From a virus, in the IMG/VR virus record IMGVR_UViG_3300038309_000252, positions 62,001 through 126,000 of that record: a stretch of 64,000 bases of DNA; one strand, 5' to 3'. Under the pieces are notes generated by a model, which worked only from the letters and a program-made list of their open reading frames with translations, was not told the DNA's origin and made no database searches. Positions within the stretch are counted from its first letter, which is position 1, and every line of letters starts with the position of its first letter. Positions 2,308 through 41,895 of the stretch are shown in pieces. The position numbers and the translations under genes were made by a program.

Positions 2308-2730
2308 CATGTTTTTCTGTTACTTAAAATTTAATTTTGAAGATGGATTTCTGCCTCAAACCAACAAAGGATGATTGATTCAATCTTATCTTGTTCAATG
2401 TTTCTTGTTTAATTGAACCAGGTTGATCCAGGTTAATTTGTTGTTCTAGATCATTTGTTGTTTAATGTTTCTTGTTTAATTGTTCTAGATCATTTGTTGT
2501 TCAAGGTTTCTTGTTTAATTGAACCAGGTTGATCCAGGGTTAATTTGTTGTTCAAGGTTTCTTGTTTTATTGATCTAGTTGTTCTAGATCATTTGTTGTT
2601 TTATGTTACCTTTTATGGTATAATGTTTTTTGTTTTATTGATCTAGGTTAATTTAATGTTCTAGATCGTTAAAGTTTTTTTGTTCCTTAAAGAACACATT
2701 TATTATACCATATTTTTGGACAAAAGTCAA
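2308..2730 (-). repeat. left copy of long inverted repeat (IR-L), probable promoter-driven noncoding RNA
   Basis: The reverse complement matches 41420-41895 closely. The first 125 bases from the promoter are nearly identical in the two copies, as is the distal end (AATCAATCATCCTTTG... to about 2308). In between both contain different numbers of the same AT-rich modules (AACAAGAAAC, CCTGGATCAACCTGG, GATCTAGAAC). The transcript would start with a perfect hairpin built from TGTTCTTTAAGGAACA. No reading frame longer than about a dozen codons was seen on the transcribed strand. It fills the gap between the uvsW operon and gp55. Confidence 0.8.
2702..2730 (-). promoter_or_regulatory. sigma-70 promoter of IR-L transcript
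   Basis: On the minus strand: TTGACT, 17 bases, TATAAT. It points away from gp55 into the repeat. The same promoter occurs at 41420-41448. Confidence 0.85.
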
Positions 2731-2763
2731 CTGTATACAGGATTTTTCACAACCCTTCTATAG

Positions 2764-2792
2764 TTGACATCAATGCTGTTAAATGGTAAAAT
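2764..2792 (+). promoter_or_regulatory. sigma-70 promoter for the gp55 operon
   Basis: TTGACA, 17 bases, TAAAAT, 25 bases before the gp55 start. It is back to back with the IR-L promoter. Confidence 0.8.
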
Positions 2793-2817
2793 ATTTTCTT
2801 TCAAAAGGAGTGAAAAT

Positions 2818-3384
2818 ATGGCAGATTATGTTAACAATCTTCAATTCTTAGAAGCAATAAAAGAATATCGTAATCTTAGAAAGCATGCTGAAGAAAATAA
2901 TCTTAAAATGCCTCAAATCCCAAACTATATTGGTGAATGCATTTTACAAATTGCTACTCATTTATCCTATAAATATAATTTTTTGAATTATACCTATAAA
3001 GATGAAATGATTAGTGATGGTATTGAAAATTGTATTACCTACCTAAACAATTTTGATCCTGATAAATCAAGCAATCCATTTGCCTATTTTACCCAAGTAA
3101 TTTACTATGCTTTTATTAGAAGGATTCAAAGAGAAAAGAAGCAATCTATTATCAAAGGTGCTTTGATAAGCAATATTTGTTTATCAGATGAATTTGAAAT
3201 ATTTGAATCTCAAATAGATGATGAAATGCAAATTAATCAATCACTTATTGGTAACGTGCAAAATAATAATCCATATATCAAGAACTTATCAAAAAGTAAT
3301 ACAACAAAAAGACGTAAACTTAAAGAAAAGTTTATCGATAAAGAAGAATTTAATACATCCAATATACTTGAGGAACTGATGTGA
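2818..3384 (+). CDS. 55: late-transcription sigma factor gp55
   Basis: Resembles T4 gp55, the small sigma-like protein that directs host RNA polymerase to late promoters together with gp33 and the gp45 clamp. The diagnostic core is about residues 60-105 (DEMISDGIENCITYL, FDPDKSSNPFAYFTQ, AFIRRIQREKKQ), a sigma region 2-like helix set. The start at 2818 is chosen because AAAGGAG lies just upstream; the frame is open back to 2764, but that overlaps the -35 and -10 boxes. The last bases overlap gp47. Confidence 0.92.
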   Translation: MADYVNNLQFLEAIKEYRNLRKHAEENNLKMPQIPNYIGECILQIATHLSYKYNFLNYTYKDEMISDGIENCITYLNNFDPDKSSNPFAYFTQVIYYAFIRRIQREKKQSIIKGALISNICLSDEFEIFESQIDDEMQINQSLIGNVQNNNPYIKNLSKSNTTKRRKLKEKFIDKEEFNTSNILEELM

Positions 3385-4430
3385 AAATAGCTTTACTTGG
3401 CGATACACATTGGGGAGTAAGAAATGATATGCCTGTGTTTTACAGGCATATGGAAAAATTTTATAATTGGTTTTTTGATCAATTGAAAGAAAATAAAATT
3501 GATCAATTAATCCAACTTGGTGATTTGTTTGATAGGAGGAAATATATCAATCTGAAAACATTACACCAAGCAGAAAAAATCATGTTTCAACCATTAAAAG
3601 CTATGGAGATTCCAACCCATATTATTGTTGGAAATCATGATTCATATTATAAAGATTGCCTTGATGTTAATTCTTTAACATTAATTATTAATCAATATCA
3701 AAATATTACAATTTATAGTAAACCAACAACAGTTTCAATTGATGGTATTTCATGTGATTTCTTTCCATGGATTTGTTCAGATAATGAGAAATCTAGCTTA
3801 CAGTTAATTGAAAATACCAAGTCAAAGTATGCTTTTGGTCATTTTGAATTAGCTGGTTATTTTCAAATTCCTGGTGTTATTTCTGAACATGGAATGAAAA
3901 CACAAGTTTTGAAGAATTATAAGCAGGTTATTAGTGGTCATTATCATACAAGATCACAAAAAGATAATGTTTTATATACTGGTACTCCATATGAAATGAC
4001 ATGGAATGATTATAATGATCCAAAAGGATATCATATCTTAGATACATCTACAGGAAATATTAAGTTTGTCAAATCACCTTTTGTTTCATTTGTCAAAATA
4101 GAATATGATGATTTTAATGCAAAAATGTCTAAAGAAAAATATCAAGTAGATGATTGTTTTGTAAAAGTTATTGTCAAGAATAGAACCAACAATATTATGT
4201 TTGACCAATTTATAAACGACTTGCAAAATCAAGCATTTGATGTTAAAATCATTGAAGATTTTACAGAATATTTGGATGGAGATATTAGTCAAATTGACAA
4301 AATCAACGTTGAAAATACTCTTGATGTTGTGTCAAAATATATCGATTCACTTGAAACCGATATGAATAAAGATAAGATCAAATCATTTGTCAAATCTCTT
4401 TACATTGAGGCATCAAATCTAGAAACATGA
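3381..4430 (+). CDS. 47: recombination nuclease subunit gp47 (Mre11/SbcD-like)
   Basis: Calcineurin-type phosphoesterase that forms the end-processing nuclease with gp46, needed for recombination-dependent replication and host DNA breakdown. Metal-binding motifs in order: GDTHWG near the N terminus, GDLFDRR around residue 47, GNHDSYY around 83 and GHYHTR around 187. Length (349) matches T4 gp47. It overlaps gp55 by four bases and gp46 by four bases, as in a coupled operon. Confidence 0.95.
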   Translation: MKIALLGDTHWGVRNDMPVFYRHMEKFYNWFFDQLKENKIDQLIQLGDLFDRRKYINLKTLHQAEKIMFQPLKAMEIPTHIIVGNHDSYYKDCLDVNSLTLIINQYQNITIYSKPTTVSIDGISCDFFPWICSDNEKSSLQLIENTKSKYAFGHFELAGYFQIPGVISEHGMKTQVLKNYKQVISGHYHTRSQKDNVLYTGTPYEMTWNDYNDPKGYHILDTSTGNIKFVKSPFVSFVKIEYDDFNAKMSKEKYQVDDCFVKVIVKNRTNNIMFDQFINDLQNQAFDVKIIEDFTEYLDGDISQIDKINVENTLDVVSKYIDSLETDMNKDKIKSFVKSLYIEASNLET

Positions 4431-6136: not shown

Positions 6137-6160
6137 CTATTTAAAGATGAGGATAAGTTA

Positions 6161-8012: not shown

Positions 8013-8022
8013 TGGAGTGATT

Positions 8023-27393: not shown

Positions 27394-28311
27394 TCATTCA
27401 TCAGCTAATGATTGAAAATATGCCACCATTTCATCATCATTATCTGATTCCAAAGGTTGCTTTTTAGATTTTCCAACTTCTGGTGTTTCTTTGACCTTAG
27501 CTTCCATTATAGGTTCTTCGATTTCTTTAATATTTACAGAAACTTCTTTTGCTGAAAAGTTTTTGTTAGTAAGACCTAACACAGCATTCAACTTTTGTTT
27601 CAATTGTTCATATGTCTTAAAGTTTGATTCATCAATAAGTTCAGATAATTTATAACACTTATTTGCAATTTGCATAATTTCTTCATCAGAATCAGATATT
27701 GGTGCTGGTGATTCAAACTCAGAAGAATCATAGTTTGGAAATCCATCTGCTTGCTTGATTCGCAGTTTGAAGTTAGCTCCTTCCCAAAAATCAAAAACAT
27801 TCACTGGTTCCTGATCTTCAAATAATGGTTTTGCTTTATCAATAATCTTATCAAAGATTTTCTTGCCATACTTGAATAGAAATACCTTTCCATTATTTTC
27901 TGGATGTTTTGGATCATTAACAACAAGAATATTAGAAATGTAATTCAACTTCCTTTTTTGATCTCTTACTTGTTTTCTAGCAGGAGACTTATCATCATTA
28001 GTAGAATTCCATAGTTCTATATTCAATTCATTAACAGGATCCCCCTTGTTAATAGTTGTCAATGAGTTTTCAATGTACCATTTTCCAGTTGGTCCTTTAA
28101 ATCCATGAGTAAATAACTTAACCCATGGTAGAGCATTCTCAACACTTGGAAGAAAACGAATTGTAGCAGAACCATTACCTGCTTTATCACGTTCTAGCTT
28201 CCAAAAACGATCGTCATTATAATCTTTCCTTTCATTCTGCTCAAACTCTTTAATGATCTTGCTAAAATCATTATTACGTGTTGCGCGCACAGATTTGATA
28301 TCAAACGACAT
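27394..28311 (-). CDS. 32: single-stranded DNA-binding protein gp32
   Basis: 305 residues with gp32 marks: the basic N-terminal cooperativity region, TIRFLPSVENALPWVKLF, FTHGFKGPTGKWYIENS, an OB-fold core and an acidic C-terminal tail ending DDEMVAYFQSLADE. The Cys residues that bind zinc in T4 gp32 are absent here, as in cyanophage-type gp32. It coats single strands and organises UvsX, UvsY, primase and polymerase. Driven by a consensus promoter at 28406-28434. Confidence 0.93.
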   Translation of the reverse strand: MSFDIKSVRATRNNDFSKIIKEFEQNERKDYNDDRFWKLERDKAGNGSATIRFLPSVENALPWVKLFTHGFKGPTGKWYIENSLTTINKGDPVNELNIELWNSTNDDKSPARKQVRDQKRKLNYISNILVVNDPKHPENNGKVFLFKYGKKIFDKIIDKAKPLFEDQEPVNVFDFWEGANFKLRIKQADGFPNYDSSEFESPAPISDSDEEIMQIANKCYKLSELIDESNFKTYEQLKQKLNAVLGLTNKNFSAKEVSVNIKEIEEPIMEAKVKETPEVGKSKKQPLESDNDDEMVAYFQSLADE

Positions 28312-28345
28312 ATTACACCTCTTTTAACGACATATAAACGAAATA

Positions 28346-28501
28346 TTAATTATATTTTTCTGATGCAGGAAATTGATAAAGATCACGTTTATTAGTTTTT
28401 CTTTTATTATACTGCTTCTTTTGCTTTTTGTCAAGTGATTCCTTTTTATCCTTATTATCCCACATATAATCAAATTTATTCTTATGAAAAGTCTTACTCA
28501 T
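28346..28501 (-). CDS. small basic protein before gp32
   Basis: 51 residues, very Lys-rich (MSKTFHKNKFDYMWDNKDKK at the start, FPASEKYN at the end). The gp32 promoter lies inside this frame. No family recognised; basic composition suggests nucleic-acid binding. Confidence 0.5.
   Translation of the reverse strand: MSKTFHKNKFDYMWDNKDKKESLDKKQKKQYNKRKTNKRDLYQFPASEKYN
28406..28434 (-). promoter_or_regulatory. consensus sigma-70 promoter for gp32
   Basis: On the minus strand: TTGACA, 17 bases, TATAAT, inside the small gene 28346-28501. Confidence 0.9.
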
Positions 28502-28521
28502 AAATTAAACCCTAAACCTCC

Positions 28522-28737
28522 TTAAAATGACAACAATAGATTATTTTCCTTTTTAATATTAAGATCATTTTTTAACTTAGCTTTCAATGCAGCATTAACA
28601 TTTTTTGCAATTTGCTCTGGTTCAATATCATATCTATTGCAATATTCAAGGATGACATCTAGACATGTCATCCTATTTTTGATTGCTATTAATTCAATTT
28701 TTTCAGAGAAAATATTTTTGTTAATTTTCTTAGCCAT
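28522..28737 (-). CDS. 33: late-transcription coactivator gp33
   Basis: 71 residues: FSEKIELIAIKNRMTCLDVI, LEYCNRYDIEPEQIAKNV and a helical end finishing in the hydrophobic ENNLLLSF, the type of C-terminal clamp-binding tail that gp33 uses to contact gp45. gp33 bridges the clamp and RNA polymerase at late promoters with gp55. GAGG precedes ATG 28737; the frame is open from 28764. Confidence 0.85.
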   Translation of the reverse strand: MAKKINKNIFSEKIELIAIKNRMTCLDVILEYCNRYDIEPEQIAKNVNAALKAKLKNDLNIKKENNLLLSF

Positions 28738-28760
28738 AATTATCCTCTTTTGTTTGATTG

Positions 28761-28892
28761 TCAAACATCATAATCAAATAACCATAATTCATCGTTACAT
28801 GTATTAATCCTAAAATCCACTGGAAACTTTTTTTCCTGTTCTTGTTCTTTTAATTGGGTATTCGTTAAGAAGTTGCTTGGATCCTTCTTCAT
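28761..28892 (-). CDS. possible small gene overlapping the clpP end
   Basis: Reading frame of 43 codons from ATG 28892, overlapping the 3' end of clpP in another frame, then running 49 bases past it. The C-terminal end, CNDELWLFDYDV, looks protein-like. No ribosome-binding site is visible. Confidence 0.35.
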   Translation of the reverse strand: MKKDPSNFLTNTQLKEQEQEKKFPVDFRINTCNDELWLFDYDV

Positions 28893-29556
28893 TGGATGGA
28901 CAGGTTGTATTTGATTGTGATTGCTGCTCATGTTCATGTTTACATTCATGATTTTCATTTCCTTCAACTTTATTAAGAAACTTTAAACGTTCTTGAAATC
29001 TATTACGAATTTGATCAGCATCAAACCATAATTCAACTCCAGATTTTACACCTTCTAATTCTTCAGAAGTCAAGAAACCATCATAGGTTTCATGAAGCAT
29101 TTTCTCAATCATTTTGACAGTAAATTCTGTGTGTGCCTTTACATTCCTTGCACTTCCTTGCGATTCAAAAAAAGCAGTATGAATCATCATATAAGCACTA
29201 TCAAAGACCACAATTTGATCGCAATACATGGCAATCATAGAAGCAGCAGAAAAACATGGACCAACAAGCATTGCTGTAGTTGTTGCTTGAGTATACTTCA
29301 ATCCTTCAATAATTGCAAATGTGGAATCAAGACTGCCTCCAGAAGAATTAATAAATAAATTAATAGAATCATTTTCATCTGAATTAAATAAAATAGTCAA
29401 AAAATCACGATACTTATCTGGGCAATCAATTTCATTGTCTAAAAATACATCATGATGCTGGTAGATTTTTTGTATAGTCTTAATATACTGATCTACTGGA
29501 GTATCAAAAATCTTTGCAAAGATTTTTGATTGTGATGGATTAATATCATTATTCAT
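28810..29556 (-). CDS. ClpP-like serine protease
   Basis: ClpP/crotonase fold: FINSSGGSLDSTFAI, the nucleophile region GPCFSAASMIAMYCD (Ser in AASM) and the His region YMMIHTAFF. The last 45 residues are a polar His/Gln-rich tail not found in ClpP. Phage ClpP-like proteases occur in T4-like phages and may process capsid or host proteins. Start ATG 29556 after GAGG; the frame opens at 29565. No catalytic AAA+ partner is adjacent. Confidence 0.8.
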   Translation of the reverse strand: MNNDINPSQSKIFAKIFDTPVDQYIKTIQKIYQHHDVFLDNEIDCPDKYRDFLTILFNSDENDSINLFINSSGGSLDSTFAIIEGLKYTQATTTAMLVGPCFSAASMIAMYCDQIVVFDSAYMMIHTAFFESQGSARNVKAHTEFTVKMIEKMLHETYDGFLTSEELEGVKSGVELWFDADQIRNRFQERLKFLNKVEGNENHECKHEHEQQSQSNTTCPSNEEGSKQLLNEYPIKRTRTGKKVSSGF

Positions 29557-29572
29557 AGTTATCACCTCTATT

Positions 29573-30220
29573 CTATACTAAAATTTGATATTGCTTTCTG
29601 AAATATGCAAACTTATCAATCCATTTTTCTCTATCTTTACTAACAAATAGTTGGATTCCATAGTCTGGAACAGCAATAATAATTCTAAGTGATGGTATTG
29701 TTATACCAAATAATTCTTCAAACATCAAAGAATATACAGATACTTGCATCCAATAATTTTCAATCCATTCATTTCTTTTTGGTTTGGATGAAGTCTTGAA
29801 ATCAATTACAGACAATTCACCATCAAATTCACCAATACAGTCTACAGTTCCAGCTACTAGTAATGAAGGAGAATACATTCTAGATTCTAGACAATGAATA
29901 TTGTCAATTCTATCTAATACAGGTTCTAATTTATTAAATATTTCTTTTTCAAATATTCCTGGAGATGCCTTCCCTGTAAGAAGAAATTGCTCACATAAAC
30001 TATGTATTTCAGTTCCAAAAGCAGATGATTTTTTTTGTATTCTTTCAGCTTCTTCAATTCCTACCTTTTCAATCCATTTATCAATTGAATCTTTTGTTAC
30101 TAGTTTTAGGACAGAAGTTACAGAAGGCATAATATCACCATTGATACTTGAATATGTCCTTCCTTCATCTGTATTAATTTGATCAAGATGTGGAAAATCA
30201 TGATGTATAAAAGTTTTCAT
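29573..30220 (-). CDS. PD-(D/E)XK exonuclease (RecB/Cas4-like)
   Basis: 215 residues with the nuclease core: a conserved HSLCEQF helix (about residue 74), then GTVDCIGEF and SVIDFKTS, the D...(D/E)xK arrangement, then the Q of YWMQVSVYSLM. Such nucleases in T4-like phages are thought to act in DNA recombination or processing. Flanked by clpP and the endolysin. Confidence 0.75.
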   Translation of the reverse strand: MKTFIHHDFPHLDQINTDEGRTYSSINGDIMPSVTSVLKLVTKDSIDKWIEKVGIEEAERIQKKSSAFGTEIHSLCEQFLLTGKASPGIFEKEIFNKLEPVLDRIDNIHCLESRMYSPSLLVAGTVDCIGEFDGELSVIDFKTSSKPKRNEWIENYWMQVSVYSLMFEELFGITIPSLRIIIAVPDYGIQLFVSKDREKWIDKFAYFRKQYQILV

Positions 30221-30232
30221 ACCATACCTAAT

Positions 30233-31279
30233 TTAGATAAGTTCAAAATGAAATGGATCAATCAATGTTGATAATGATGCTTTTTGACTAGAAGAGTATA
30301 AATCCACATTTTTAGCTAAATCTAGGAATCTAATATCACCATATGCCCAGCATGATCCCCATCTTAATGGTATTTGTAATTCTTTTGCCACAGATTGAAC
30401 TGCTGTTGCTAATGACATATATGATGCTTTCAATTTAAGGTCATTCAATTCCTGATGTTGCAACAAAGGTTTAAAATATTCATAAAACCCACGTTTTTTC
30501 TTAGCAATATCTGGTGAATTATACCCTACTTTATTTAGTGCTGCAAGATAATAATCAGGATGTGATTTAGGATCAATATTAGATGGAATATTTTGTTTAA
30601 AAAATAAAACAGTAATATCTGCAGCAATTTGAGGATCATTCATCATATCTGGTCTTTCATCAATTGGAATACCTGAAAGTTTAGCAAACTTTTCGTAATT
30701 ATATCTTCCTGTCAATTGAATGAATCCCCTACCATAATATTTTCCACCATCATCTGCTTTAATATTACCTAAGATTTTTCCTTGTGGAGTTGTTGGTCCA
30801 TATATAAAATTAAAAAACTCTGCTCTAGTACCTTTGTTTTTCGTTTTCCAATTAGCATATTTATTTGCTAAAGATGCATTACCATGAAAAATTGATGGAA
30901 ATATTTTTAACAATCTATTAGATGAGTATTCATAATATTCTTCTTGACATTTCCATTCACATTCACCACCAACAATACCCAATACGGAAGCTTTTTGAAC
31001 TGGTGTAAAAAATTGATATTTATCACATGCTTTAATCAATAACGCAATATTGGTTTTTAATTCAGAATTATAAGGTTTAGGTGGAATTATATCATCATAA
31101 ATTGGAGTTGGCAATAATATGTCAATTGCTGAACCAGATTGATGTGATTGCGTCATTTCTTTCTTATGTTCTTTTGCAGCGCTTCCTAATGTAAACTGTA
31201 CAGGACTTGTAGAATATAATTTATCTATTAGTTTTATAAGTTTAGGATTAATAGATTTGATTAACGGATTTATTGTCAT
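30233..31279 (-). CDS. endolysin: GH19-type lysozyme domain inserted in an M15-type peptidase
   Basis: The first 60 residues and the last 65 together resemble one M15 D,L-peptidase: QSHQSGSAIDI (the SxHxxGxAxD zinc motif) near residue 45, and LRWGSCWAYGDI with DPFHFEL (the HFE motif) at the C terminus. Between them (about residues 75-285) sits a GH19 chitinase/lysozyme-like domain with the catalytic Glu in VGGECEW and the signature YYGRGFIQLTGRYNY. So two cell-wall activities are nested. 348 residues; overlaps phoH by four bases. Confidence 0.75.
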   Translation of the reverse strand: MTINPLIKSINPKLIKLIDKLYSTSPVQFTLGSAAKEHKKEMTQSHQSGSAIDILLPTPIYDDIIPPKPYNSELKTNIALLIKACDKYQFFTPVQKASVLGIVGGECEWKCQEEYYEYSSNRLLKIFPSIFHGNASLANKYANWKTKNKGTRAEFFNFIYGPTTPQGKILGNIKADDGGKYYGRGFIQLTGRYNYEKFAKLSGIPIDERPDMMNDPQIAADITVLFFKQNIPSNIDPKSHPDYYLAALNKVGYNSPDIAKKKRGFYEYFKPLLQHQELNDLKLKASYMSLATAVQSVAKELQIPLRWGSCWAYGDIRFLDLAKNVDLYSSSQKASLSTLIDPFHFELI

Positions 31280-32100
31280 TGATAATCCTCCTCATTATCA
31301 TCATAATTCATTTTGGCAATAATATATTCTTTAACAATATTGCTTCTTATAATGTCTTCAATTCCGAATTCAATATGAGCAAGTGATCTCATTTTTTTAG
31401 TGACATTCTTAAATCTTAATAACCCAGACATATCATTTTTTTTCTTATTTAAATCAGTTTGTCTATAATCACCACAGAATAAGATTTTTGAATTATAACC
31501 AACTCGAGTCATTATAGAGTCTAATTCTTCCCATGTCAGGTTTTGACATTCATCCACAATGATAATACAATTGTCAAATGTCATTCCTCTAATAAATGAC
31601 GTTGAAACAAACTCAACATGTTTTTGTTCTTCTAATCTATCCCATGCATCTTTTCTATCAAATAAAGTTTCACAAATCTGTTTATAAGGAAGTTGATATA
31701 TATCAAGTTTTTCATCAACTGATCCTGGAAGATGACCAATTTCTCTTCCTTGCACTGCTGATCTGACAACTAATAATTTATTATATTTACCTTTCATTAA
31801 AATTTCTTCAATACTTTTATACAAAGCACAGAAGGTTTTTCCTGTACCAGCTACACCATGAAGCATTATAAAGGAATTATCTTCATTATACAATGAAAAA
31901 AACTTACTTTGATTTTCTGTTAAAGGTTGAAATGTTTTAAGATCATCAATTTTAATTTTTAATTGATTTTTATGAAGTTTTTGTTGTTTATTAGTTGTTA
32001 TTTCTGTGGATTGCAGGATGAAAGAAATGTCATTAATGTCATTAATTGATGAATGACCATTACCATTTAAATGATTAGCTTTCCATGTTTGTTTAGACAT
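31276..32100 (-). CDS. phoH: PhoH-like ATPase
   Basis: P-loop ATPase of the PhoH family, common in marine and T4-like phages, with RNA-helicase-like relatives. Walker A GVAGTGKTFCAL lies about residue 81, VRSAVQGREIGHLPG is the family signature, Walker B is CIIIVDECQN, and a sensor region KILFCGDYRQTD follows. The first 55 residues are an unrelated polar extension. Confidence 0.9.
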   Translation of the reverse strand: MSKQTWKANHLNGNGHSSINDINDISFILQSTEITTNKQQKLHKNQLKIKIDDLKTFQPLTENQSKFFSLYNEDNSFIMLHGVAGTGKTFCALYKSIEEILMKGKYNKLLVVRSAVQGREIGHLPGSVDEKLDIYQLPYKQICETLFDRKDAWDRLEEQKHVEFVSTSFIRGMTFDNCIIIVDECQNLTWEELDSIMTRVGYNSKILFCGDYRQTDLNKKKNDMSGLLRFKNVTKKMRSLAHIEFGIEDIIRSNIVKEYIIAKMNYDDNEEDYQ

Positions 32101-32126
32101 GAAGCATTATTACTCCTTAAAGATGT

Positions 32127-32360
32127 TTATTTGATGTTTAATTGACTACCTGGTGTAGTTGAATGAATTTTTTGCATTACCTCCTTAAATCCTTGATCTG
32201 TGCGACGTATTCCCAATCTAACAGGATCGCCAAGATGTGGTGGTGTAATTATCAATTCCAATTCAGGATTATCAAGTAAATACTGATCACGTTTATCATA
32301 AGAAATAATTTCCTCAAATGTTATTCCAGTTATTTTATTACGAAATTCATATAATGCCAT
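32127..32360 (-). CDS. small conserved phage protein
   Basis: 77 residues: LYEFRNKITGITFEE resembles the FmdB-type strand pair but has no zinc Cys; the end has PVRLGIRRTDQGFKEVMQKI, a pattern seen in many T4-like phages. Function unknown. Confidence 0.65.
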   Translation of the reverse strand: MALYEFRNKITGITFEEIISYDKRDQYLLDNPELELIITPPHLGDPVRLGIRRTDQGFKEVMQKIHSTTPGSQLNIK

Positions 32361-32398
32361 CTATTTACCTCATTAATTATTTATGATTTGTTAAAAAC

Positions 32399-32426
32399 AA
32401 AAGGCACCAGGATCCTGGTGCCTTTT
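32399..32426. terminator. rho-independent terminator
   Basis: A 28-base perfect palindrome from AAAAGGCACCAG to its complement, with A and T runs at the ends. It ends the operon whose last gene stops at 32452. Confidence 0.85.
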
Positions 32427-32451
32427 CAAAATAATTAGATATTACAAAATC

Positions 32452-32796
32452 TTAATCATTATCATCGCTTGAAGAGAAATTGTGGTATTCAATAACGACA
32501 GAAGTTACAGACAAATTTTGAATTGTTTTAATTTGATCAATAATATCAAATGTTTTGTCATAATCAACAACACTGCCAGAAATAACTGCTTTTACAAGAA
32601 TATCATTTTCAGTACTTGGAATTAATTCAACATCCATTCCATAATGCATATTAACTTTTATTTGAGAAGGAATAACAATGTTATTATCTAGCTTCTTAAT
32701 GTCTAAAAGAACATTATTAAAACGTTTCCATGCTTCACTAAAAGCAGAAGAATCTACTTTAAGTTCAATATTGGCAAAAAAATAAATATTTTCCAT
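32452..32796 (-). CDS. hypothetical protein
   Basis: 114 residues with an alternating strand-helix pattern and an acidic end (SSSDDND). ATG 32796 follows GAGG; the frame is open from 32808. No family recognised. Just downstream of the PAAR gene. Confidence 0.55.
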   Translation of the reverse strand: MENIYFFANIELKVDSSAFSEAWKRFNNVLLDIKKLDNNIVIPSQIKVNMHYGMDVELIPSTENDILVKAVISGSVVDYDKTFDIIDQIKTIQNLSVTSVVIEYHNFSSSDDND

Positions 32797-32838
32797 TTCA
32801 TACCTCATTTAACATAAACAAAACAATCTTGATTTGAA

Positions 32839-33117
32839 TTAACCTGCAAAAACTGTAGAACTTCCTTGAGCATTTGTAGAACCACAAGCTATTGAATCAC
32901 CAACACGAGCTACTCCTTTTCCGTTTACAATTACTGTACTACTTCCACTACTTTGTGTTGATGTATGTGGTGGAATACCATGTGGACCCCAAGAATCACC
33001 AACTCTATGAACACCTTTACCATCAACAAAAACATCAGTTGATGCACTAGTATTAGCTCTTGGTGGAGCATTTGCATGTCCTGAACACATATCACCAAGT
33101 CTAACAACTGCAGGCAT
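32839..33117 (-). CDS. PAAR-motif spike tip protein
   Basis: 92 residues of PAAR repeats: VVRLGDMCSGH at the start, FVDGKGVHRVGDSW and VNGKGVARVGDSIACGS. PAAR proteins sharpen the tip of the gp5-type membrane-piercing spike of contractile tails and bind a metal through the conserved His and Cys. A structural gene within an otherwise mixed minus-strand operon. Confidence 0.9.
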   Translation of the reverse strand: MPAVVRLGDMCSGHANAPPRANTSASTDVFVDGKGVHRVGDSWGPHGIPPHTSTQSSGSSTVIVNGKGVARVGDSIACGSTNAQGSSTVFAG

Positions 33118-33247
33118 TTTTAATCTCTTTATTTAAATTATTTTTTTCTAAACGTCTTAATGCCTTTCTAGTTTTTCCATGTGGACCATGCTTTGGTTGA
33201 TTGTTCCACAAAGCTAACAAATGAAAATTACGAGTTTTGATTTTCAT
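33101..33247 (-). CDS. tiny basic protein of the GPHGKT family
   Basis: 48 residues overlapping the PAAR gene start. It contains KHGPHGKTRKALRR, matching SGPHGKTTKANRR in the early protein at 48216. Shared motif and basic character suggest a nucleic-acid-binding peptide family. AGGATAATAAA precedes the ATG. Confidence 0.55.
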   Translation of the reverse strand: MKIKTRNFHLLALWNNQPKHGPHGKTRKALRRLEKNNLNKEIKNACSC

Positions 33248-33261
33248 TTTATTATCCTGTA

Positions 33262-33813
33262 TTAGATGGTATTAGATGCTGCTTTTTCTGCAGCAGCTTT
33301 TTGCTCTAATTCTTGTTGCCTAGCTAATCTTCTCATTTTCAATTTTTGATACCTTGTCAATGGTTTTTCTTCCAATGGAGGAACTTCTGGAGGATTATCA
33401 ACCATTGGGATGAATCCTGCTTCTGCAATTACTTTATATGTTAACTTAGGATATAAATGCGGCAAGGTTTGATCTTTGACAGCAATCAAAATTGCTACTT
33501 CATCAGGATGTAAAACTTCACACATACGAATAAATGCATCTTCACGTTTCATCATTGGTATATCTTTTTTACAAAAGATATCAAACTTTCCAATTTGGGC
33601 AATAAATGGAACACCAGTCAATCCTTGTGGTTCCAATGCTTTTTTAAATGGTGGAATACCTGATGGAAGAATGAATTTTCCATTTGGAACATACGCATGG
33701 AAAAATAGTTTGCCTAATGGACCACCATTACCTTGCTTCTTATATGTTGTTTGAAAAAGACTCAAATCATTATTCAATTCTTTTAAAACGTCTGTGATAT
33801 ATTTTGTAGTCAT
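33262..33813 (-). CDS. conserved T4-like hypothetical protein
   Basis: 183 residues. Contains GNGGPLGKLFFHAYVPNG, a LHPDEVAILIAVKDQ segment and MVDNPPEVPPLEE before a basic Ala/Gln-rich tail. Proteins with this layout are found in marine T4-like phages. Overlaps the next gene upstream by four bases. Confidence 0.6.
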   Translation of the reverse strand: MTTKYITDVLKELNNDLSLFQTTYKKQGNGGPLGKLFFHAYVPNGKFILPSGIPPFKKALEPQGLTGVPFIAQIGKFDIFCKKDIPMMKREDAFIRMCEVLHPDEVAILIAVKDQTLPHLYPKLTYKVIAEAGFIPMVDNPPEVPPLEEKPLTRYQKLKMRRLARQQELEQKAAAEKAASNTI

Positions 33814-34553
33814 ACTTTAACTCTACGCTTAATGTTTTTTGTTAATTTTGTAACTTTTCTTGTTTTTGGTTTATTATTAACCTGATTACAGTCATTAATA
33901 ATAGACTCAATCATCTTTTGAAATTGTACCAATCGCCTTCTTGGCAGCAATCTATAATTTTCAACAATATCATTATCTGATATATTTATAGCAGAAAGTA
34001 GTTCTTGATTAAGATCATTAAACAACAATCCAACTTTTTTTGCAACTGCACTTGATATATTATTCATAATTAAATATGTTTTCATGGAAAACACTTCATT
34101 TTTCAAAATGAAATCATCTATAGCTTGATCGACATCAGAAGCAACTACTTGCACAAGATTAAGTAGTCTTTGATTTGGGTTTGGTTTATTGTTTAATACA
34201 ATAGTTTGTGGTTTATAGTTAGTGGACAAATTAATAACTTCTTGTGTAAGTTTTTGAATATTATCAATATCAATATATTGAGCTCGTCTAATTAAATGAC
34301 CAATAACTCCAATTTTCCTTATTGATAAAAAGGATGAATTTGATATAAAATCTATAGATGGAAATTTCAATATATTTTTTACAAAGTACTCCGCAGCATC
34401 TCTGTAATTCTTTTCTGACCAATTTTCATTATACCAATTCAATGCATTAATTAAGTCTATTTTGTAATTATCTTCTGAAATAATAGGTTCATTAACAATT
34501 GGTTTCTTTCTGCGTGTTTTTGGTTGGTCTTGAACTAAGGTTTCTGTTTCCAT
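33810..34553 (-). CDS. conserved hypothetical protein, basic ends
   Basis: 247 residues, helical, with a Lys/Arg-rich C terminus (RKVTKLTKNIKRRVKV) and N-terminal KTRRKK. The helical core includes SFLSIRKIGVIGHLIRRAQ. It may bind DNA or RNA, but no family is identified. Confidence 0.55.
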   Translation of the reverse strand: METETLVQDQPKTRRKKPIVNEPIISEDNYKIDLINALNWYNENWSEKNYRDAAEYFVKNILKFPSIDFISNSSFLSIRKIGVIGHLIRRAQYIDIDNIQKLTQEVINLSTNYKPQTIVLNNKPNPNQRLLNLVQVVASDVDQAIDDFILKNEVFSMKTYLIMNNISSAVAKKVGLLFNDLNQELLSAINISDNDIVENYRLLPRRRLVQFQKMIESIINDCNQVNNKPKTRKVTKLTKNIKRRVKV

Positions 34554-34557
34554 TATT

Positions 34558-34944
34558 TTAACCCATGTATGGATAGCTAGGATTTTTCAATGAATCAATT
34601 GAATCAATATTATTATTGAATTTAAACTTAGTTATAGAATCCCATCTGAAAGATCTCCATGCTTGTTTATCTACATCAAACACACGACATGCTGAATTAT
34701 GTGGACTATTATGCTTTGAATCTTGTGGATCACTAGATTCATTTAATGTCTTAGGACGCATATCTTCTGGAATTAAATCCATGACCATCGTACAGTTCAT
34801 AACTCGTTCTGAACCATCAAGTTTTGTAAATGTAATTTCCATGTTTGATTCTGGATCATGCAGCAAATTGTATATAAAAATACGAGTACTTATTACTTCA
34901 TCTTCTGTAAGAGATGTCTTAAAAGGATTAATAATTTCAATCAT
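34558..34944 (-). CDS. SH3-like conserved phage protein
   Basis: 128 residues: EITFTKLDGSERVMNCTM followed by a spacer and CRVFDVDKQAWRSFRWDSI, the pattern of a small SH3-like beta-barrel family (DUF2693-like) common in T4-like phages. Role unknown. Confidence 0.65.
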   Translation of the reverse strand: MIEIINPFKTSLTEDEVISTRIFIYNLLHDPESNMEITFTKLDGSERVMNCTMVMDLIPEDMRPKTLNESSDPQDSKHNSPHNSACRVFDVDKQAWRSFRWDSITKFKFNNNIDSIDSLKNPSYPYMG

Positions 34945-34982
34945 ATTTTCACTCCAAATTACATTATTTGGAATATTATAAT

Positions 34983-35417
34983 CTAACTTGTGGTTTCTGT
35001 CAATGGATTAATTTCATCAATCAATTTTGATATATGACTATATGATACACGAGCATTAATGATTCTATTGTAATAAAGATCAGGATTTTCTAGAACACGT
35101 CTATCAATTTGTTCACGCATTTCTAGATAATTGGCATGCGATTTCATTTTGCAAAAATGAAGAATTTCTCTTCTGAAGTTTTCTTCACCTAATAATTTCA
35201 CATCAGATTTTAATTGATCTGATGATGACCAGTAATCTTTCCAATCAGATTCAACATTAATTCTTTTCTTTTTTCCTTTAATAACCTTATACTTTGTACA
35301 ATAAAATTGTTTCAATCCAATATATTGTTTGCCTGAAATAAGATTAGTTATTAAATAAACAAATGCCTTATATTGAGGATCAATTGAATCCACTATTTGA
35401 GTTTTGTGATACCACAT
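34983..35417 (-). CDS. GIY-YIG-like endonuclease
   Basis: 144 residues. FVYLITNLISGKQYIGLK matches the GIY-YIG core, ESDWKDYWSSSDQLKSD and LGEENFRREILHFCK follow, and YYNRIINARV closes it, as in a free-standing nuclease family common in T4-like phages. It overlaps deformylase by 38 bases, so it is settled in the operon rather than a recent invader. Confidence 0.75.
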   Translation of the reverse strand: MWYHKTQIVDSIDPQYKAFVYLITNLISGKQYIGLKQFYCTKYKVIKGKKKRINVESDWKDYWSSSDQLKSDVKLLGEENFRREILHFCKMKSHANYLEMREQIDRRVLENPDLYYNRIINARVSYSHISKLIDEINPLTETTS

Positions 35418-35889
35418 TCTTCTTGTATTTCTTTAACTGCTTCAAAACTCTAGAATTATCAAATTCAATGATTTTGTCAATGAATAGAATGCCATTTAAA
35501 TGATCAATTTCATGTTGTACACAAATTGCATCTATATCTTTATATATATTCTCTTGACAAATCCCTTCAATATCTTGGTATGAAACATGTATTGTTTTAT
35601 ATCTTTTAACTCTTCCAGATATTCCAGGTATTGATAAACAACCTTCTTCAGAAATGATAAAATCATAATAATCTATAATAACTGGATTGATTAAAACATT
35701 AAAACTATTCCTATCTATTGATGTATCAAAGCAAATAACTCTTGAATTAATTCCAACTTGTGGAGCAGATAATCCAATTCCATTATTTGAGTACATACTG
35801 TCTTTCATTTTTTTAATAAAAGAAACAGGAAAGGCAGCATCGGAAGAATACTGCCTTAATATCTCATTTGGATATGTAATAATTTTCAT
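35380..35889 (-). CDS. def: peptide deformylase
   Basis: All three deformylase motifs are present: GIGLSAPQVG, EEGCLSIPG and VQHEIDHLNG (Cys and two His bind the metal, Glu is catalytic). 169 residues, with a C-terminal extension. It removes formyl groups from new proteins; phage copies are thought to speed protein maturation. Confidence 0.93.
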   Translation of the reverse strand: MKIITYPNEILRQYSSDAAFPVSFIKKMKDSMYSNNGIGLSAPQVGINSRVICFDTSIDRNSFNVLINPVIIDYYDFIISEEGCLSIPGISGRVKRYKTIHVSYQDIEGICQENIYKDIDAICVQHEIDHLNGILFIDKIIEFDNSRVLKQLKKYKKNVVSQNSNSGFN

Positions 35890-35903
35890 GTGTCATGTCC
35901 AAA

Positions 35904-37640
35904 TCATGTCCAAACAGATCCCCATGAACCAGTTAAAGAACCTTTAGAATAGCTGGTTCCCTTTTGCTCAAAAAAGTTTGAATGTTCAGGAGCATTAATA
36001 ATTTCTTCTACCCATGGTAAAGGATTCTTCTTTACCTTGAATATTCCTTTCATTCCTAAAGCAATCAATCTTCTATCTGCAATATATCTAATATACTTCT
36101 TAACTTCTTGCTCTGTTAAACCTTGGACCCCACCAGTTTTAAAAGCAAGATCAATAAACTTATCCTCTAATTCCACCATTTTTTCTGCGATATTATATAG
36201 TTGACCTTTAATGTCATCTGTCCATAGTGCTCTATGTTCTTTAAGAATTTCCTTAAACAACCATGTCATTCCTTCCACGTGACAATTCCCAGTAACAGAT
36301 ATCTTTCCATTTGAGCGAATTAAAAATGCAGAACCAGGAACAGAAACGCAATAAAATTGTGTTGGTTCATGTGTAATATATCTCTTAACTACAGTTGATG
36401 ATTTGATATATCGAAATGTATTTGAACTTTCAATATATTCACCACAAGCTAATAAAGCAATACAATCAATAACTTCTTTAATTTCTTTTTTCATCACATA
36501 ACTTTCATTATTAATTAAATATAATGAAGTTAATTGAATCCAATATTCAATTGCTTCTCTTGCCCATCTACTTGAAACATAATTTAACTGCCAATAAAAC
36601 CAATTTGGATCTAGTAATTCCCAAAAAATACAATTAATCATTTTTAAATCTTCTGTGGTTAGATTATCTCTACCAATACGCAATTCACCAGTTCTAATAT
36701 AATGTGCTCTACCAGATGATGTTGATGCAGTAAATACTCCTTCCTCACACACCATCCTATGATCAGAAGTAACATGCTGATGAAACGAATCGCTTTCAAA
36801 AATATATGATTCTGATCTACTAGAAACAATAATATCTTTTGGTTTTGTGAACGAAAGTTCTTTATTTTTGATATTATATTGCATCAAAATAGTATCCATA
36901 TCTACTTCAGATATTTTTTTCCATCCGGTCAAAGTTAGTACTTCTGTATCGCCATGCAAGCAGGATTCATCTTTAATTGACCATGCAATCATTTGTCCCA
37001 TTCCATTCATTTTATTATATCTTGTAAAGTTTAATAACATGATGAAAGAAGAAAATAGTTGCATTCCTTCTGTAAAAGCAGAAAAAGCAGCAATTTGTTG
37101 GATAATTTGTTTTTCATTTGTATCCATAAATGTTTCAATAAATTCATGTTTTTCACGCATTTCTTCATATTCAACAAATTGCTGATAAGTAGATTCTGGC
37201 ATTCCTAAAGTATCAATTAAATGAGAATATGCTTGAATATGTACTGCTTCTCTTGCAGCAAAAGACATTAACATCATTCTAATTTCAGGTTTAGGAAACA
37301 ATGGAAGATATTTTGTTACATATGCACCAGCTACATCTACATCAGATTGAGTAAACAATCTAAAAATCTGTGTCAAGAAATACTTTTCTGTAGATGATAA
37401 TTTTGTTTTCCAATCCATAACATCTTGATGCAATGATACTTCATCAACTACCCAGTGCATCTTTTCGTGTACATGATAAAACTCAAATGCTTTAGGATAT
37501 TCAAATGGTTTGTAGTGATTTCTTGGAGTAAAAATACTTCTTTTCTTATTAGTTTGTGATTTCTTTTCATCCATGTATTCTTTTAAATCATATTCTGTGG
37601 TATTAACATGAATTACATTGTTATCATTTAATTCTGTCAT
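35904..37640 (-). CDS. nrdB: ribonucleotide reductase class I small subunit with intein
   Basis: Exteins carry the diiron centre: EAVHIQAYSH, FSAFTEGMQLF and, across the intein, SIKDES joined to CHVEG. The precursor is 578 residues and the spliced protein about 352. The intein covers 36285-36962. The start is ATG 37640, nine bases after GAAGG; ATG 37649 overlaps the nrdA stop but is too close to that site. With nrdA and thyX it forms a deoxynucleotide-supply operon. Confidence 0.93.
   Translation of the reverse strand: MTELNDNNVIHVNTTEYDLKEYMDEKKSQTNKKRSIFTPRNHYKPFEYPKAFEFYHVHEKMHWVVDEVSLHQDVMDWKTKLSSTEKYFLTQIFRLFTQSDVDVAGAYVTKYLPLFPKPEIRMMLMSFAAREAVHIQAYSHLIDTLGMPESTYQQFVEYEEMREKHEFIETFMDTNEKQIIQQIAAFSAFTEGMQLFSSFIMLLNFTRYNKMNGMGQMIAWSIKDESCLHGDTEVLTLTGWKKISEVDMDTILMQYNIKNKELSFTKPKDIIVSSRSESYIFESDSFHQHVTSDHRMVCEEGVFTASTSSGRAHYIRTGELRIGRDNLTTEDLKMINCIFWELLDPNWFYWQLNYVSSRWAREAIEYWIQLTSLYLINNESYVMKKEIKEVIDCIALLACGEYIESSNTFRYIKSSTVVKRYITHEPTQFYCVSVPGSAFLIRSNGKISVTGNCHVEGMTWLFKEILKEHRALWTDDIKGQLYNIAEKMVELEDKFIDLAFKTGGVQGLTEQEVKKYIRYIADRRLIALGMKGIFKVKKNPLPWVEEIINAPEHSNFFEQKGTSYSKGSLTGSWGSVWT
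36285..36962 (-). mobile_element. intein in NrdB (226 residues)
   Basis: Begins CLHGDTEVLTLTGWKKISEV (blocks A), has block B QHVTSDHRM (TxxH), and ends FYCVSVPGSAFLIRSNGK... with SVTGN followed by Cys. The usual penultimate His is Gly. No LAGLIDADG or other endonuclease motif is seen in the central part, so it is probably a mini-intein or one with a decayed endonuclease. It sits between two metal ligands of the enzyme, two residues from each. Confidence 0.93.
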
Positions 37641-37645
37641 TGATT

Positions 37646-39469
37646 TCATCCTTCACAAGCAATACAAGAAGAATCATCTTTTAACATATCTTTCAAATCT
37701 TCAATCTTTTCTCTTGCAATTTTCTTTCCTACTAAATCCGCTTTCTTGATATTTTCGGAACGACAATAATATAAAGATTTTAACCCTTGTTTCCATGCCA
37801 TTAAATGCACCAAATGAACATATTCAATGTTTGCAGTTGGCACAAAAAATAGATTAATGGATTGTGCTTGACAAACATATGGTTGCCTATCTGCTGCATG
37901 TTGAATAATCCATGCTTGATCGATTTCCATAGCTGTTTTAAATATTTTCTTTTCATATTCATCAAGAAAATTCAATTCAGAAACAGAACCATCATTAGCA
38001 ATGATTTCAGACCATACTTCTTCTATATTTTTTCCTTTTTCATCTAGAAGTTTTTCTAAATATTTGTTTCTATGTACCCTTGTTCCATTAATACCTTTTT
38101 CAAGGTAAACATTTGCTCTTAATGGTTCAACAGATGGTGAAGTATTAAGAATAATAGAAGATGATGCATTTGGAGCAATTGCAAATAAATGACTATTTCT
38201 TACTGGAAAATCACTTAAAATACTATCAGGACATGCACCACGATCTTTACCAAGTTGGGTGGTTTTATCCTTAGCTTGAGTATGAATATTTTTCCAAATA
38301 TTTCTATTAAGACCAGAAGCAATTGCAGATTCAAAAGGAATCTTCTTTTTCATCAATAAATTATGCCATCCAAGCGCTCCAATACCAATAGAGCGCTCTG
38401 AAATCGCAGATACAATTGCTCTTTTTAGTTCAAGAAACTTCTTACCTTTTTGAATAAATACTTCCAGTACATTATCAAGCATTTCTACGATGTCTGGGAT
38501 GAAATCTTTATTATCTTTCCAATCATCATAATATTCAAGATTCACAGATGATAAGCAACAAACAAATGTCCTTTCATTATTGGTAGCTAATGTAATTTCA
38601 CTACATAGATTTGAACCATTGCTTTTTAACCCTAACTTCTGTTGATATTCTGGGAAATATCTATTTACTGTATCAATGAACCAAAGGTAAGGTTCACCAG
38701 TTTCCATTCTGATCGTAATAATTCTTTCCCACAATTCCTTCACAGATGCATAATCCACCACACTTTTATCAAATGGATTAAGTAATGGAAACTTATCTAA
38801 TTCTTCTTTTTCTTGTTGTGATAGATTAGAACCATTCAATGATAATGCTTCAACTCTTCTCATAAAATCATCTGTAATATTTACTCCATGGTGAATATTA
38901 AGACATTTTCTATTTGAATCTCCACCAGTTGGTTTTCTCATTTCTAGAAATTCAATAATTTCTGGATGATTAATATCAAGATAAGCTGCTGTGGCACCAC
39001 GTCTTGTTGTACCTTGCTTAAATGCCAATGTATCAACATCATAAGTCTTTAAATGCGGAATAATACCAGATGATTTCCTGTCACCTGGACGAAGATTTAC
39101 ATGTAAACCAACACCACCACCAACAACTGCTAGCATTCTTGTTTCTGAACTAGTTTCAAGAATACTTTCCATGGAATCATCAAGAAAAGAACCAAAACAT
39201 GAAATTGGCAATGATCGTGATGAATTATTATAGCTTAAAATTGGTGATGCAAAACTTAACCACATCTTAGAACTATAATCATATAATCTTTGTGCATGTT
39301 GTAAATTGCTTCCAAATATTTTTGATATAAAAGCAAATCTATGTTGTGGAGAAGTTTCTCCCTCTTGCATGTAACCTTCTTTTAATCTTTCTAACCCTGA
39401 TTCTGAAAATAGATTATCTCTTGAATAATCTATTTTAATATCATTAATAAAATCTATTGTATTGCTCAT
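37646..39469 (-). CDS. nrdA: ribonucleotide reductase class I large subunit
   Basis: 607 residues. Signatures include LPISCFGSFLDDS (active-site Cys), GTTRRGATAAYLDINHPEI, SNLCSEI and the C-terminal redox pair SSCIACEG. There is no ATP-cone at the N terminus, so activity regulation by dATP is probably lost. ATG 39469 overlaps the thyX stop; the frame is open from 39487. No intein here. Confidence 0.95.
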   Translation of the reverse strand: MSNTIDFINDIKIDYSRDNLFSESGLERLKEGYMQEGETSPQHRFAFISKIFGSNLQHAQRLYDYSSKMWLSFASPILSYNNSSRSLPISCFGSFLDDSMESILETSSETRMLAVVGGGVGLHVNLRPGDRKSSGIIPHLKTYDVDTLAFKQGTTRRGATAAYLDINHPEIIEFLEMRKPTGGDSNRKCLNIHHGVNITDDFMRRVEALSLNGSNLSQQEKEELDKFPLLNPFDKSVVDYASVKELWERIITIRMETGEPYLWFIDTVNRYFPEYQQKLGLKSNGSNLCSEITLATNNERTFVCCLSSVNLEYYDDWKDNKDFIPDIVEMLDNVLEVFIQKGKKFLELKRAIVSAISERSIGIGALGWHNLLMKKKIPFESAIASGLNRNIWKNIHTQAKDKTTQLGKDRGACPDSILSDFPVRNSHLFAIAPNASSSIILNTSPSVEPLRANVYLEKGINGTRVHRNKYLEKLLDEKGKNIEEVWSEIIANDGSVSELNFLDEYEKKIFKTAMEIDQAWIIQHAADRQPYVCQAQSINLFFVPTANIEYVHLVHLMAWKQGLKSLYYCRSENIKKADLVGKKIAREKIEDLKDMLKDDSSCIACEG

Positions 39470-40338
39470 GAGCTTTCTGTTTCCCAAAGTTTCCTAAATT
39501 GATTCCAATTTGATAAATTACCTTGTAAATATGGACTAAATGAATCATGTAATACAGGTGTTGCTTGATGTTCTAAAGGAGAAGCATGAATTGGATTACT
39601 CTTGACCAATCTTTCAAATAGCTTCATGTCATCATCAATTGATGGTGAGGTTTGATCGTGCTTAAGATATGAAACTCTGCAACATCTTGCTGCGCTTATT
39701 TTTGGCAAAAAATAATGATCAGTTTTATATCTTGGATCATTATATAGTGTATCAATTTCACTAGATTTGATATATGGAAGATGCCATTCTCCAGCATGTA
39801 ATTCAACTGGTTTTGAATTATTTAATGCGGATTTCATTTCTTTAGCTAACGTTTGAATCTCTGGTTGAGCATCCGGATGATCTCGTAAATTGAAAAAATT
39901 ATCCCATTCTGTTGAAGTAACAACACCTTCTACATACATGAATGGTTCAAGTAATCTATTTACAATTTGTTTATGTACACCTAAATCATACATGTATTCT
40001 GCTACATCAGCATTGTAATTAGCTGCTGCTATCCATTCTGCCTTTGCTAACTCTAAATCAGGATACTCTAATTCATCATTTGCTTGCATTCCAGGTTTAT
40101 TCCTTCCCCAAAATACAGGAATTGCTGGATTAGTACGTACCTGTTCAATAAGTTTTGATGTTGGAATAGCTCTTGATGAAGAAAAGTTTCTACTGAATAC
40201 TCTATGGGTATTAAACTCTGCAAGAATAAACCTATGAAACTTAACTTGCATTGTTGTAATTCTGAATAATTTATTGTGAAGTAGTGGATCATACTTATCA
40301 ATATTTACTGAATCTGCAATAATCTTTGCCTCAATCAT
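39466..40338 (-). CDS. thyX: FAD-dependent thymidylate synthase ThyX
   Basis: Converts dUMP to dTMP with FAD and folate. The ThyX motif appears as HRVFSRNFSSSRAIP, and ELHAGEWHLPY and AARCCRVSYL (dUMP side) follow. GTG 40347 begins the open frame, but ATG 40338 has AAGGTG six bases upstream. Overlaps nrdA. Confidence 0.93.
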   Translation of the reverse strand: MIEAKIIADSVNIDKYDPLLHNKLFRITTMQVKFHRFILAEFNTHRVFSRNFSSSRAIPTSKLIEQVRTNPAIPVFWGRNKPGMQANDELEYPDLELAKAEWIAAANYNADVAEYMYDLGVHKQIVNRLLEPFMYVEGVVTSTEWDNFFNLRDHPDAQPEIQTLAKEMKSALNNSKPVELHAGEWHLPYIKSSEIDTLYNDPRYKTDHYFLPKISAARCCRVSYLKHDQTSPSIDDDMKLFERLVKSNPIHASPLEHQATPVLHDSFSPYLQGNLSNWNQFRKLWETESS

Positions 40339-40348
40339 TATGTTCACC

Positions 40349-41341
40349 TTAACATTTTTTCCAAAAAGAAAATCTAGCTTTAGCTTCTAATCCTGAATAA
40401 GTATTTTCTTGAATAATATCAACAATATCTTCTGATGAATAACCAGCTAATATCATTTCATTGATATCTTTTTGCTTTATGAATTCAGGAAAAAGACAAA
40501 CCTTAAAATCTTGATTGATAGTCTTTTCGATCAAATGAGATATTGTTTTTGATCTTGGTTCATTATCATATATTATAATAATATTATCTTTATTTCTTTG
40601 CAAGAAATTACCATTAAATGTAGAACCAGATACAGCAATTGCATTTGGAAGAAATAATGAGTCTATTGGTCCTTCAACCACCAAAATAGGTTTATTGATA
40701 TTTATTCTATCCAATCCATAGATTGCATCTTTTGCCTGGTCAATTTTGATGGTGTAATATTTAGGAAAATGATTATCAATACTTCTTCCTTGAAATGCAA
40801 ACCAATGATTGTTTTCTATGTAAGGAATAATTAACCTTGGATGGTCATCATTATATTCAAACTTATTTGGGATAATTGAATTGACAAATTGCATGAACCC
40901 AGGTGTATAATAAAGTATATTAAAATATTTATCTGGAATCTTTCTATTTTTTACATATGAAAAAACTGGATGATCTTCATCCAATTCTGCTATAGACTGC
41001 AATCCAATATTTACATCAACAATATTATTGTCAATTGTTTCTTTTTCTTTAATGCCAATTGAAACAGGATAAGGATTATACTTATCTAGTACATATTCAT
41101 CAAAACTTGTTGGATCAATAGTTCTTAAGAAATATCTAAAAGATGAACTATAACCACAATTATGGCATTTAACAAATAATTGATCTTTATGTTTATAGAT
41201 GTAGCATCTAGCTTTCTTCTTATTTGAAGAACTATCACCACAAATTGGACAAGAAAAGTTCCAAATATAATTACCTTTATACTTGAAGTTTCTTAGTTTA
41301 CAATTTAATTGATTGGCGTAATTTACATCAACAAATAACAT
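40349..41341 (-). CDS. 61: DNA primase (gp61/DnaG-type)
   Basis: N-terminal zinc ribbon CPICGDSSSN ... CHNCGYSSS, then the TOPRIM domain with VVEGPIDSLFLP and IIIIYDNEPRSK. It makes primers for lagging-strand synthesis with gp41. The start is ATG 41341, eight bases after GGGG; the longer frame from 41470 runs through its own promoter. It heads the minus-strand operon. Confidence 0.92.
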   Translation of the reverse strand: MLFVDVNYANQLNCKLRNFKYKGNYIWNFSCPICGDSSSNKKKARCYIYKHKDQLFVKCHNCGYSSSFRYFLRTIDPTSFDEYVLDKYNPYPVSIGIKEKETIDNNIVDVNIGLQSIAELDEDHPVFSYVKNRKIPDKYFNILYYTPGFMQFVNSIIPNKFEYNDDHPRLIIPYIENNHWFAFQGRSIDNHFPKYYTIKIDQAKDAIYGLDRININKPILVVEGPIDSLFLPNAIAVSGSTFNGNFLQRNKDNIIIIYDNEPRSKTISHLIEKTINQDFKVCLFPEFIKQKDINEMILAGYSSEDIVDIIQENTYSGLEAKARFSFWKKC

Positions 41342-41365
41342 TGTTATGATCCCCAATTTTTGAAT

Positions 41366-41394
41366 ATTATATACCAATTTGATCAATTGGTCAA
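41366..41394 (-). promoter_or_regulatory. sigma-70 promoter of the primase operon
   Basis: On the minus strand: TTGACC, 17 bases, TATAAT, 25 bases before the primase start and back to back with the IR-R promoter. Confidence 0.85.
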
Positions 41395-41419
41395 TATTCT
41401 TTTTTTGTTCTAAAAAGAC

Positions 41420-41448
41420 TTGACTTTTGTCCAAAAATATGGTATAAT
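41420..41448 (+). promoter_or_regulatory. sigma-70 promoter of IR-R transcript
   Basis: TTGACT, 17 bases, TATAAT, identical to the IR-L promoter and pointing away from the primase into the repeat. Confidence 0.85.
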
Positions 41449-41895
41449 AAATGTGTTCTTTAAGGAACAAAAAAACTTTAACGATCTAGAACATTAAATT
41501 AACCTAGATCAATTAAACAAAAAACATTATACCATAAAAGGTAACCTTAAGGTAACTTTAAACAATAAATGATCTAGAACAACTAAACAATGTAACATTG
41601 CAACAAAAGTGCAACATAAAAATCTATTATTTTGAATTTTTCATGTATAAATATCTCTGAGATGTTTGAAGATACTTAGAAACAAGATTAAACAAGAAAC
41701 ATTGAACAACAAATTAACCCTGGATCAACCTGGTTCAATTAAACAAGAAACATTGAACAACAAATTAACCCTGGATCAACCTGGTTCAATTAAACAATAA
41801 ATAATCTAGAACAAGATAATATTAAATCAATCATCCTTTGTTGGTTTGAGGCAGAAATCCATCTTTAAAATTAAATTTTAAGTAACAGAAAACAT
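41420..41895 (+). repeat. right copy of long inverted repeat (IR-R), probable promoter-driven noncoding RNA
   Basis: Reverse-complement partner of 2308-2730. It shares the promoter, the 5' hairpin, the first 125 bases and the distal end, and contains two tandem 60-base modules (around 41692-41811) with CCTGGATCAACCTGG. It has an extra block, about 41580-41690, absent from the left copy, holding a TATAAATA octamer (41646-41653), the T4 late-promoter sequence. No coding frame is seen. Downstream genes are on the other strand. Confidence 0.8.

Follow-up and report, generated by a model that had tools for sequence, protein, structure and literature searches.

The window analysed here, a 64,000-base stretch (bases 62001-126000 of the 132,600-base IMG/VR virus record IMGVR_UViG_3300038309_000252), contains long repeats that carry an outward promoter and no gene. 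What would a virus use them for? The 132.6 kb genome is that of a T4-like virus of bacteria, with about 30% GC. The original prediction was that window positions 2308-2730 and 41420-41895, which we call A and B, are reverse-complement copies of one another. This is correct (E ~1e-101), and A in fact reaches ~2745. The two are 91% identical over 162 bp at one end and 99% identical over 126 bp at the other, with a modular middle between. The prediction also took the two as possibly paired replication origins. The pairing fails because the gene-free family has four copies in the 132.6 kb record, each 0.38-0.48 kb long.

Searching the record with copy A gives five pieces that make up these four copies: C at 38421-38862 (+), A at 64308-64730 (+), B at 103420-103892 (-), and D as two fragments, one at each contig end, 132331-132582 and 6-162, both (-). 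Taken together with a four-way alignment, the search places C at record 38421-38877 (+), A at record 64308-64745 (window 2308-2745; record strand +, RNA strand -), B at record 103415-103895 (window 41415-41895; record strand -, RNA strand +) and D at record 132317-132600 plus 1-162 (-). Only A and B belong to the window; C is elsewhere in the record and D runs across the contig join. B and D are oriented opposite to A and C. A single copy cut by circular assembly is the best reading of D, since a 65-base direct repeat common to both contig ends (record 1-65 and 132536-132600) falls inside it. The order of its flanks, a gene-5-like hub/lysozyme and then gp25 and gp6, is that of the related phage Melnitz and supports the join. 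The same terminal repeat means that the number of iterons or modules in D may be collapsed or mis-assembled. There is no ORF longer than 44 aa within A or B, and the only ORF that reaches into B is that of the primase, by way of an alternative upstream TTG start.

The four-way alignment is sharply conserved at both ends and has a modular middle of variable length. One conserved end is ~130 bp and holds the promoter; inside it a block of 60 columns, hairpin and promoter, is invariant among the four copies. The opposite end carries AAGATGGATTTCTGCYTCAAACCAACAAAGGA, on the RNA 3' side (window 2325-2396 in A, 41809-41880 in B). The outward promoter, TTGACT-17-TATAAT, is a near-consensus sigma-70 promoter with an extended -10, the same in every copy; in A (2702-2730, - strand) and B (41420-41448, + strand) it matches the consensus at 11 of 12 positions and has TG ahead of the -10. 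Its predicted +1, at 2695 in A and 41455 in B just as the original prediction had it, is the first base of a hairpin, GTTCTTTAAGGAAC (2682-2695, - strand, and 41455-41468, + strand), of which the genome has exactly four copies. Judged by sequence alone, the promoter is of the early type, with near-consensus -35 and -10 boxes, rather than the MotA-dependent middle type, and the TGCTT core of a MotA box is absent from the stretch TTGACTTTTGTCCAAAAATATGGTATAAT on direct reading. Its spacer resembles those of Melnitz promoters such as TTGACTTTTGTTATAAAAACATGTATAAT, and promoters of the TTGACTTTTGT type also lie between genes of that phage.

A second extended -10, TATGGTATAAT, lies ~80 bp downstream and faces the first in all four copies. 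The inverted pair TATGGTATAAT...ATTATACCATA so formed encloses two hairpins (2614-2712 in A, 41438-41536 in B). We considered a DNA cruciform here and rejected it, as the single strand folds only moderately better than shuffles (z ~-2.8 in A and ~-3 in B). A palindrome, CTGTATACAG, sits just upstream of the -35 in A (2731-2740), C and D and is absent from B; its three occurrences in the genome are all in the elements. In both A and B the element promoter stands back to back with a predicted operon promoter, that of gp55-47-46 (2764-2792, + strand) and that of the primase operon (41366-41394, - strand), as originally proposed. We found no terminator on the RNA strand inside A or B; of the two, only B has a terminator-like hairpin, ~90 bp past the end of the element.

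The middle of each copy is built from two types of iteron, i1 (GTTCTAGATCATTTGTTG) and i2 (GAACCAGGTTGATCCAGG(G)TTAATTTGTTG), each present two or three times per copy. They are 18 and ~29 nt long and unevenly spaced. Nearly all their matches in the genome fall inside the four elements (10 of 11 for i1, 8 of 8 for i2). The array of A spans 2410-2598, with i2 at 2410 and 2517 and i1 at 2443, 2482 and 2581, while that of B (41563-41812) is broken by a unique insert of ~100 bp at ~41590-41690. The RNA strand is 46-48% A, and its AT skew lies at the 98th to 99.7th percentile. The 100-bp window of lowest duplex stability sits just downstream of the +1 in A, C and D, although it ranks only among the weakest 3-6% of the genome. 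Third-position skew, taken gene by gene, does not flip at the elements after correction for gene strand.

Copy A is flanked by uvsW plus one small ORF on one side and gp55-47-46 on the other, B by primase (followed by thyX and ribonucleotide reductase genes, the latter assigned by homology to Melnitz) and a GC-richer island, C by the genes for the terminase large subunit (gene 17) and tail sheath (gene 18), and D by the gene-5-like hub and gp25. The neighbours first named for A and B, gp55/46/47 and primase/nrd/thyX, are confirmed. The spacing between elements is 25.9, 39.1, 28.8 and 38.7 kb, and a minimum of 25.9 kb is more even than chance would give (P ~0.01 against points placed at random, 0.005 against randomly chosen gene gaps). 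Several of the neighbours deserve a remark in their own right. The uvsW-like helicase upstream of A (144-1890, + strand), which has an orthologous position in Melnitz, is a single ORF there and two ORFs here, in different frames and overlapping at 1570-1580; this is a frameshift, a split gene or an assembly error. At 809 aa the terminase large subunit (record 35979-38408) exceeds T4 gp17 in length, and its family matches come in pieces; it may contain an intein or insertion. At 38-41% GC, the island (window ~42000-50000) stands out from a genome of 30% GC. It holds a tRNA-Leu and numerous small ORFs that match no family, and a promoter box like GCATAGTTGACAAT recurs in it; within a non-coding stretch, 44868-45069 consists of two overlapping exact 108-bp copies, a tandem repeat.

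On the T4 record, oriF lies 0.9 kb past uvsW, oriE is inside gene 5, oriA and gene 61 are ~1.2 kb apart and oriG is in gene 34. A, just after uvsW, is in the neighbourhood of oriF, and D, just after gene 5, is in that of oriE. B adjoins primase, which corresponds loosely to oriA and gene 61, and C has no T4 counterpart. In this comparison, made post hoc, two of the four elements thus fall near T4 origins, one more does so loosely and one does not.

Our tentative reading, held at somewhat less than even confidence, is that the elements are four copies of a single early-promoter-driven replication-origin cassette resembling T4 oriE and oriF. From their sequence, copy number, architecture, spacing and locations we infer a sequence of transcription, R-loop formation, protein binding and initiation. 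The host sigma-70 polymerase would fire from the outward promoter at an early stage of infection and make a gene-free, A-rich RNA capped by the 5' hairpin. This RNA would run through the stretch of weak duplex and then the iteron array, and it, or its R-loop, would prime leading-strand synthesis. A protein of the phage or the host may bind the iterons and open the DNA or load the replisome. The phage encodes homologues of UvsW, UvsX, gp32 and primase, and UvsW could later clear the R-loops as it does in T4. Four near-evenly spaced cassettes would give this phage several interchangeable origins, compared with at least five unrelated ones in T4. It is possible, and we hold this wider claim more loosely, that one standard cassette of early promoter, facing promoter, hairpins and iterons has replaced the heterogeneous T4 origins at these four sites.

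The original idea of origins, without the pairing, has circumstantial support: near-identical promoter blocks and iteron arrays in four otherwise gene-free gaps, an early-type promoter, an A-rich RNA strand, a weak window in A, C and D, over-dispersed spacing, and a syntenic placement like that of oriF, oriE and loosely oriA. Against it we count the modest weakness of the duplex, the lack of a skew flip, the post hoc nature of the T4 match, the position of C, and the direction of the RNA of D, which runs with gene 5 where that of T4 oriE runs against it. Relatives also manage without the element.

The evidence from RNA structure could equally well come from a functional RNA. The elements would then be a four-copy gene for a stable early noncoding RNA of ~340-430 nt acting in trans as a regulator, decoy or sponge. 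The promoter is strong, its +1 falls on a 5' stem-loop, the hairpins are invariant and there is no ORF. Folding relative to shuffles gives z = -7.0, -1.8, -4.9 and -4.5 across the four copies, so the minimum energy is below that of shuffles in A, C and D; however, B is weakest (-1.8), and the signal is partly due to repeated palindromic modules. The invariant pairs offer no covariation, the number of modules in the middle varies, and a terminator is missing inside A and B, the hairpin of B lying past its end. The Rfam covariance-model search that was proposed at the outset gave no match at any element at the gathering score, nor at E<=1 around all copies. Action in trans does not predict even spacing either, and we consider this explanation unlikely.

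The origin reading is not mutually exclusive with another, that the elements are module-boundary recombination repeats of the kind found in Campylobacter group II phages, by which phage recombination would shuffle or invert modules of the genome. Four similar extragenic repeats do divide this genome into four modules of 26-39 kb, like RR1-RR4 in CP21 and CP220. The original prediction of inversion is possible from the opposite orientations. Apart from one inverted block, from primase to gp32 (window 27394-41470), Melnitz (gp46 45% identity) is collinear nearly throughout, and B is at one end of this, the only large inversion seen. The block is also inverted relative to T4, where those genes share a strand with 46/47/55. 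However, no copy or convincing remnant of the element was found at the far end of the inversion. Recombination does not require a conserved promoter or hairpin, and the elements have no sequence similarity to CP21. As an explanation of its own we judge this quite unlikely.

A protein-bound DNA site, possibly sensitive to methylation and used for packaging, partition or as an operator, would account for the dense GATC and TCTAGA in the iterons. The iteron content makes A, C and D the densest GATC stretches, the top-ranking 400-bp windows of the genome, with B tied with several others; for TCTAGA the enrichment is 14-fold. A D12-family adenine methylase domain is also encoded (record 59732-60604), and one copy of the element lies between the terminase and sheath genes. 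Such a site leaves the conserved outward promoter unexplained, and T4-type packaging is not known to require four such sites, so we find it improbable. A P1-like Dam-sensitive packaging site was considered, and no specificity could be assigned to the methylase. The methylase ORF (record 59528-60715, - strand) is 3.6 kb from A and has no match in NCBIfam or PDB.

A selfish, non-autonomous dispersed element would fit lineage-specific extra DNA at a junction where the gap in relatives is ~120 bp or less, but it is very improbable given that the four-way alignment shows no terminal inverted repeats or target duplications and that the copies always lie at gene boundaries and are evenly spaced.

Lack of conservation in relatives had been proposed as a refutation, and in the distant relatives available the element is indeed not conserved. 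The junction before gp55 is a gap of 496 bp here and ~120 bp or less in the 47 related loci where it could be measured. The primase and sheath junctions of the closest relatives (primase 49%, sheath 56%) also do without the element, and no convincing homologue turned up in nine related virus records, 80 gp55 loci and 51 primase and sheath loci. Searches of phage sequences and pattern searches of IMG/VR found nothing convincing, nor did a plasmid collection, with one 45-bp match. Genome contigs gave one 20-mer in Bradyrhizobium that we take as chance. Self-comparison of six related genomes yields mainly coding repeats and short intergenic repeats, and those of the latter that we inspected mostly look like duplicated promoter regions. 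Because the homologue searches gave no convincing match and the junctions in relatives lack it, the element appears lineage-specific on present data from distant relatives.

How do these elements compare with known systems? ColE1, with its RNA I/RNA II origin, may be similar in being gene-free with facing promoters and a structured RNA that could prime, but it is a single-copy plasmid origin, and the plasmid collection search found no sequence relation. RNA-based origins are also known in extrachromosomal mycobacterial prophages (PMC7157519). Those of Alma and LadyBird likewise occupy a gene-free region of a few hundred bp and express a noncoding RNA needed for replication; unlike the elements here, they are single copies in temperate prophages next to parABS.

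In T4, oriE has iterons and requires an early promoter, and oriF and oriG call for a promoter together with an A+T-rich unwinding element (PMC3016281). Like oriE and oriF (and oriG), the elements are dispersed, several per genome, and predicted to be promoter-driven; like oriE they combine an early promoter with iterons, as far as sequence tells. No role has been assigned to the oriE iterons (PMC3016281). The T4 origins have no common motif (PMC3016281), share no sequence and overlap or adjoin genes, whereas here there is one intergenic cassette in four copies. Also, oriF and oriG use MotA middle promoters, which T4-type relatives such as Melnitz lack (PMC9004378). In outline the element looks like a promoter-driven origin, but we do not class it with oriF and oriG since its promoter is not of the middle type.

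The four repeats RR1-RR4 of the T4-type Campylobacter phages CP21 and CP220 are another comparison. They are related, mostly extragenic and modular, and they split an AT-rich T4-type genome into four modules of 28-55 kb (PMC4546147). They differ in being 1-2.9 kb long, with 72-86 bp units, a 13-bp core and bipartite arms, in having genes inside some, and in having no promoter reported. The best match shown between the elements and CP21 by blastn is 23 bases (E 0.019), so we do not class them together, there being no sequence relation. T4 origins are reported to coincide with recombination hot spots, according to a work cited as reference 11 of PMC3016281. If the elements are origins, comparing the four copies of the promoter-plus-iteron cassette would reveal the bases that such an origin needs, and its sequence requirements could be deduced by aligning the copies of a single genome. 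The same result would tie the choice of origins in T4 to the unexplained four repeats of the Campylobacter T4-type phages.
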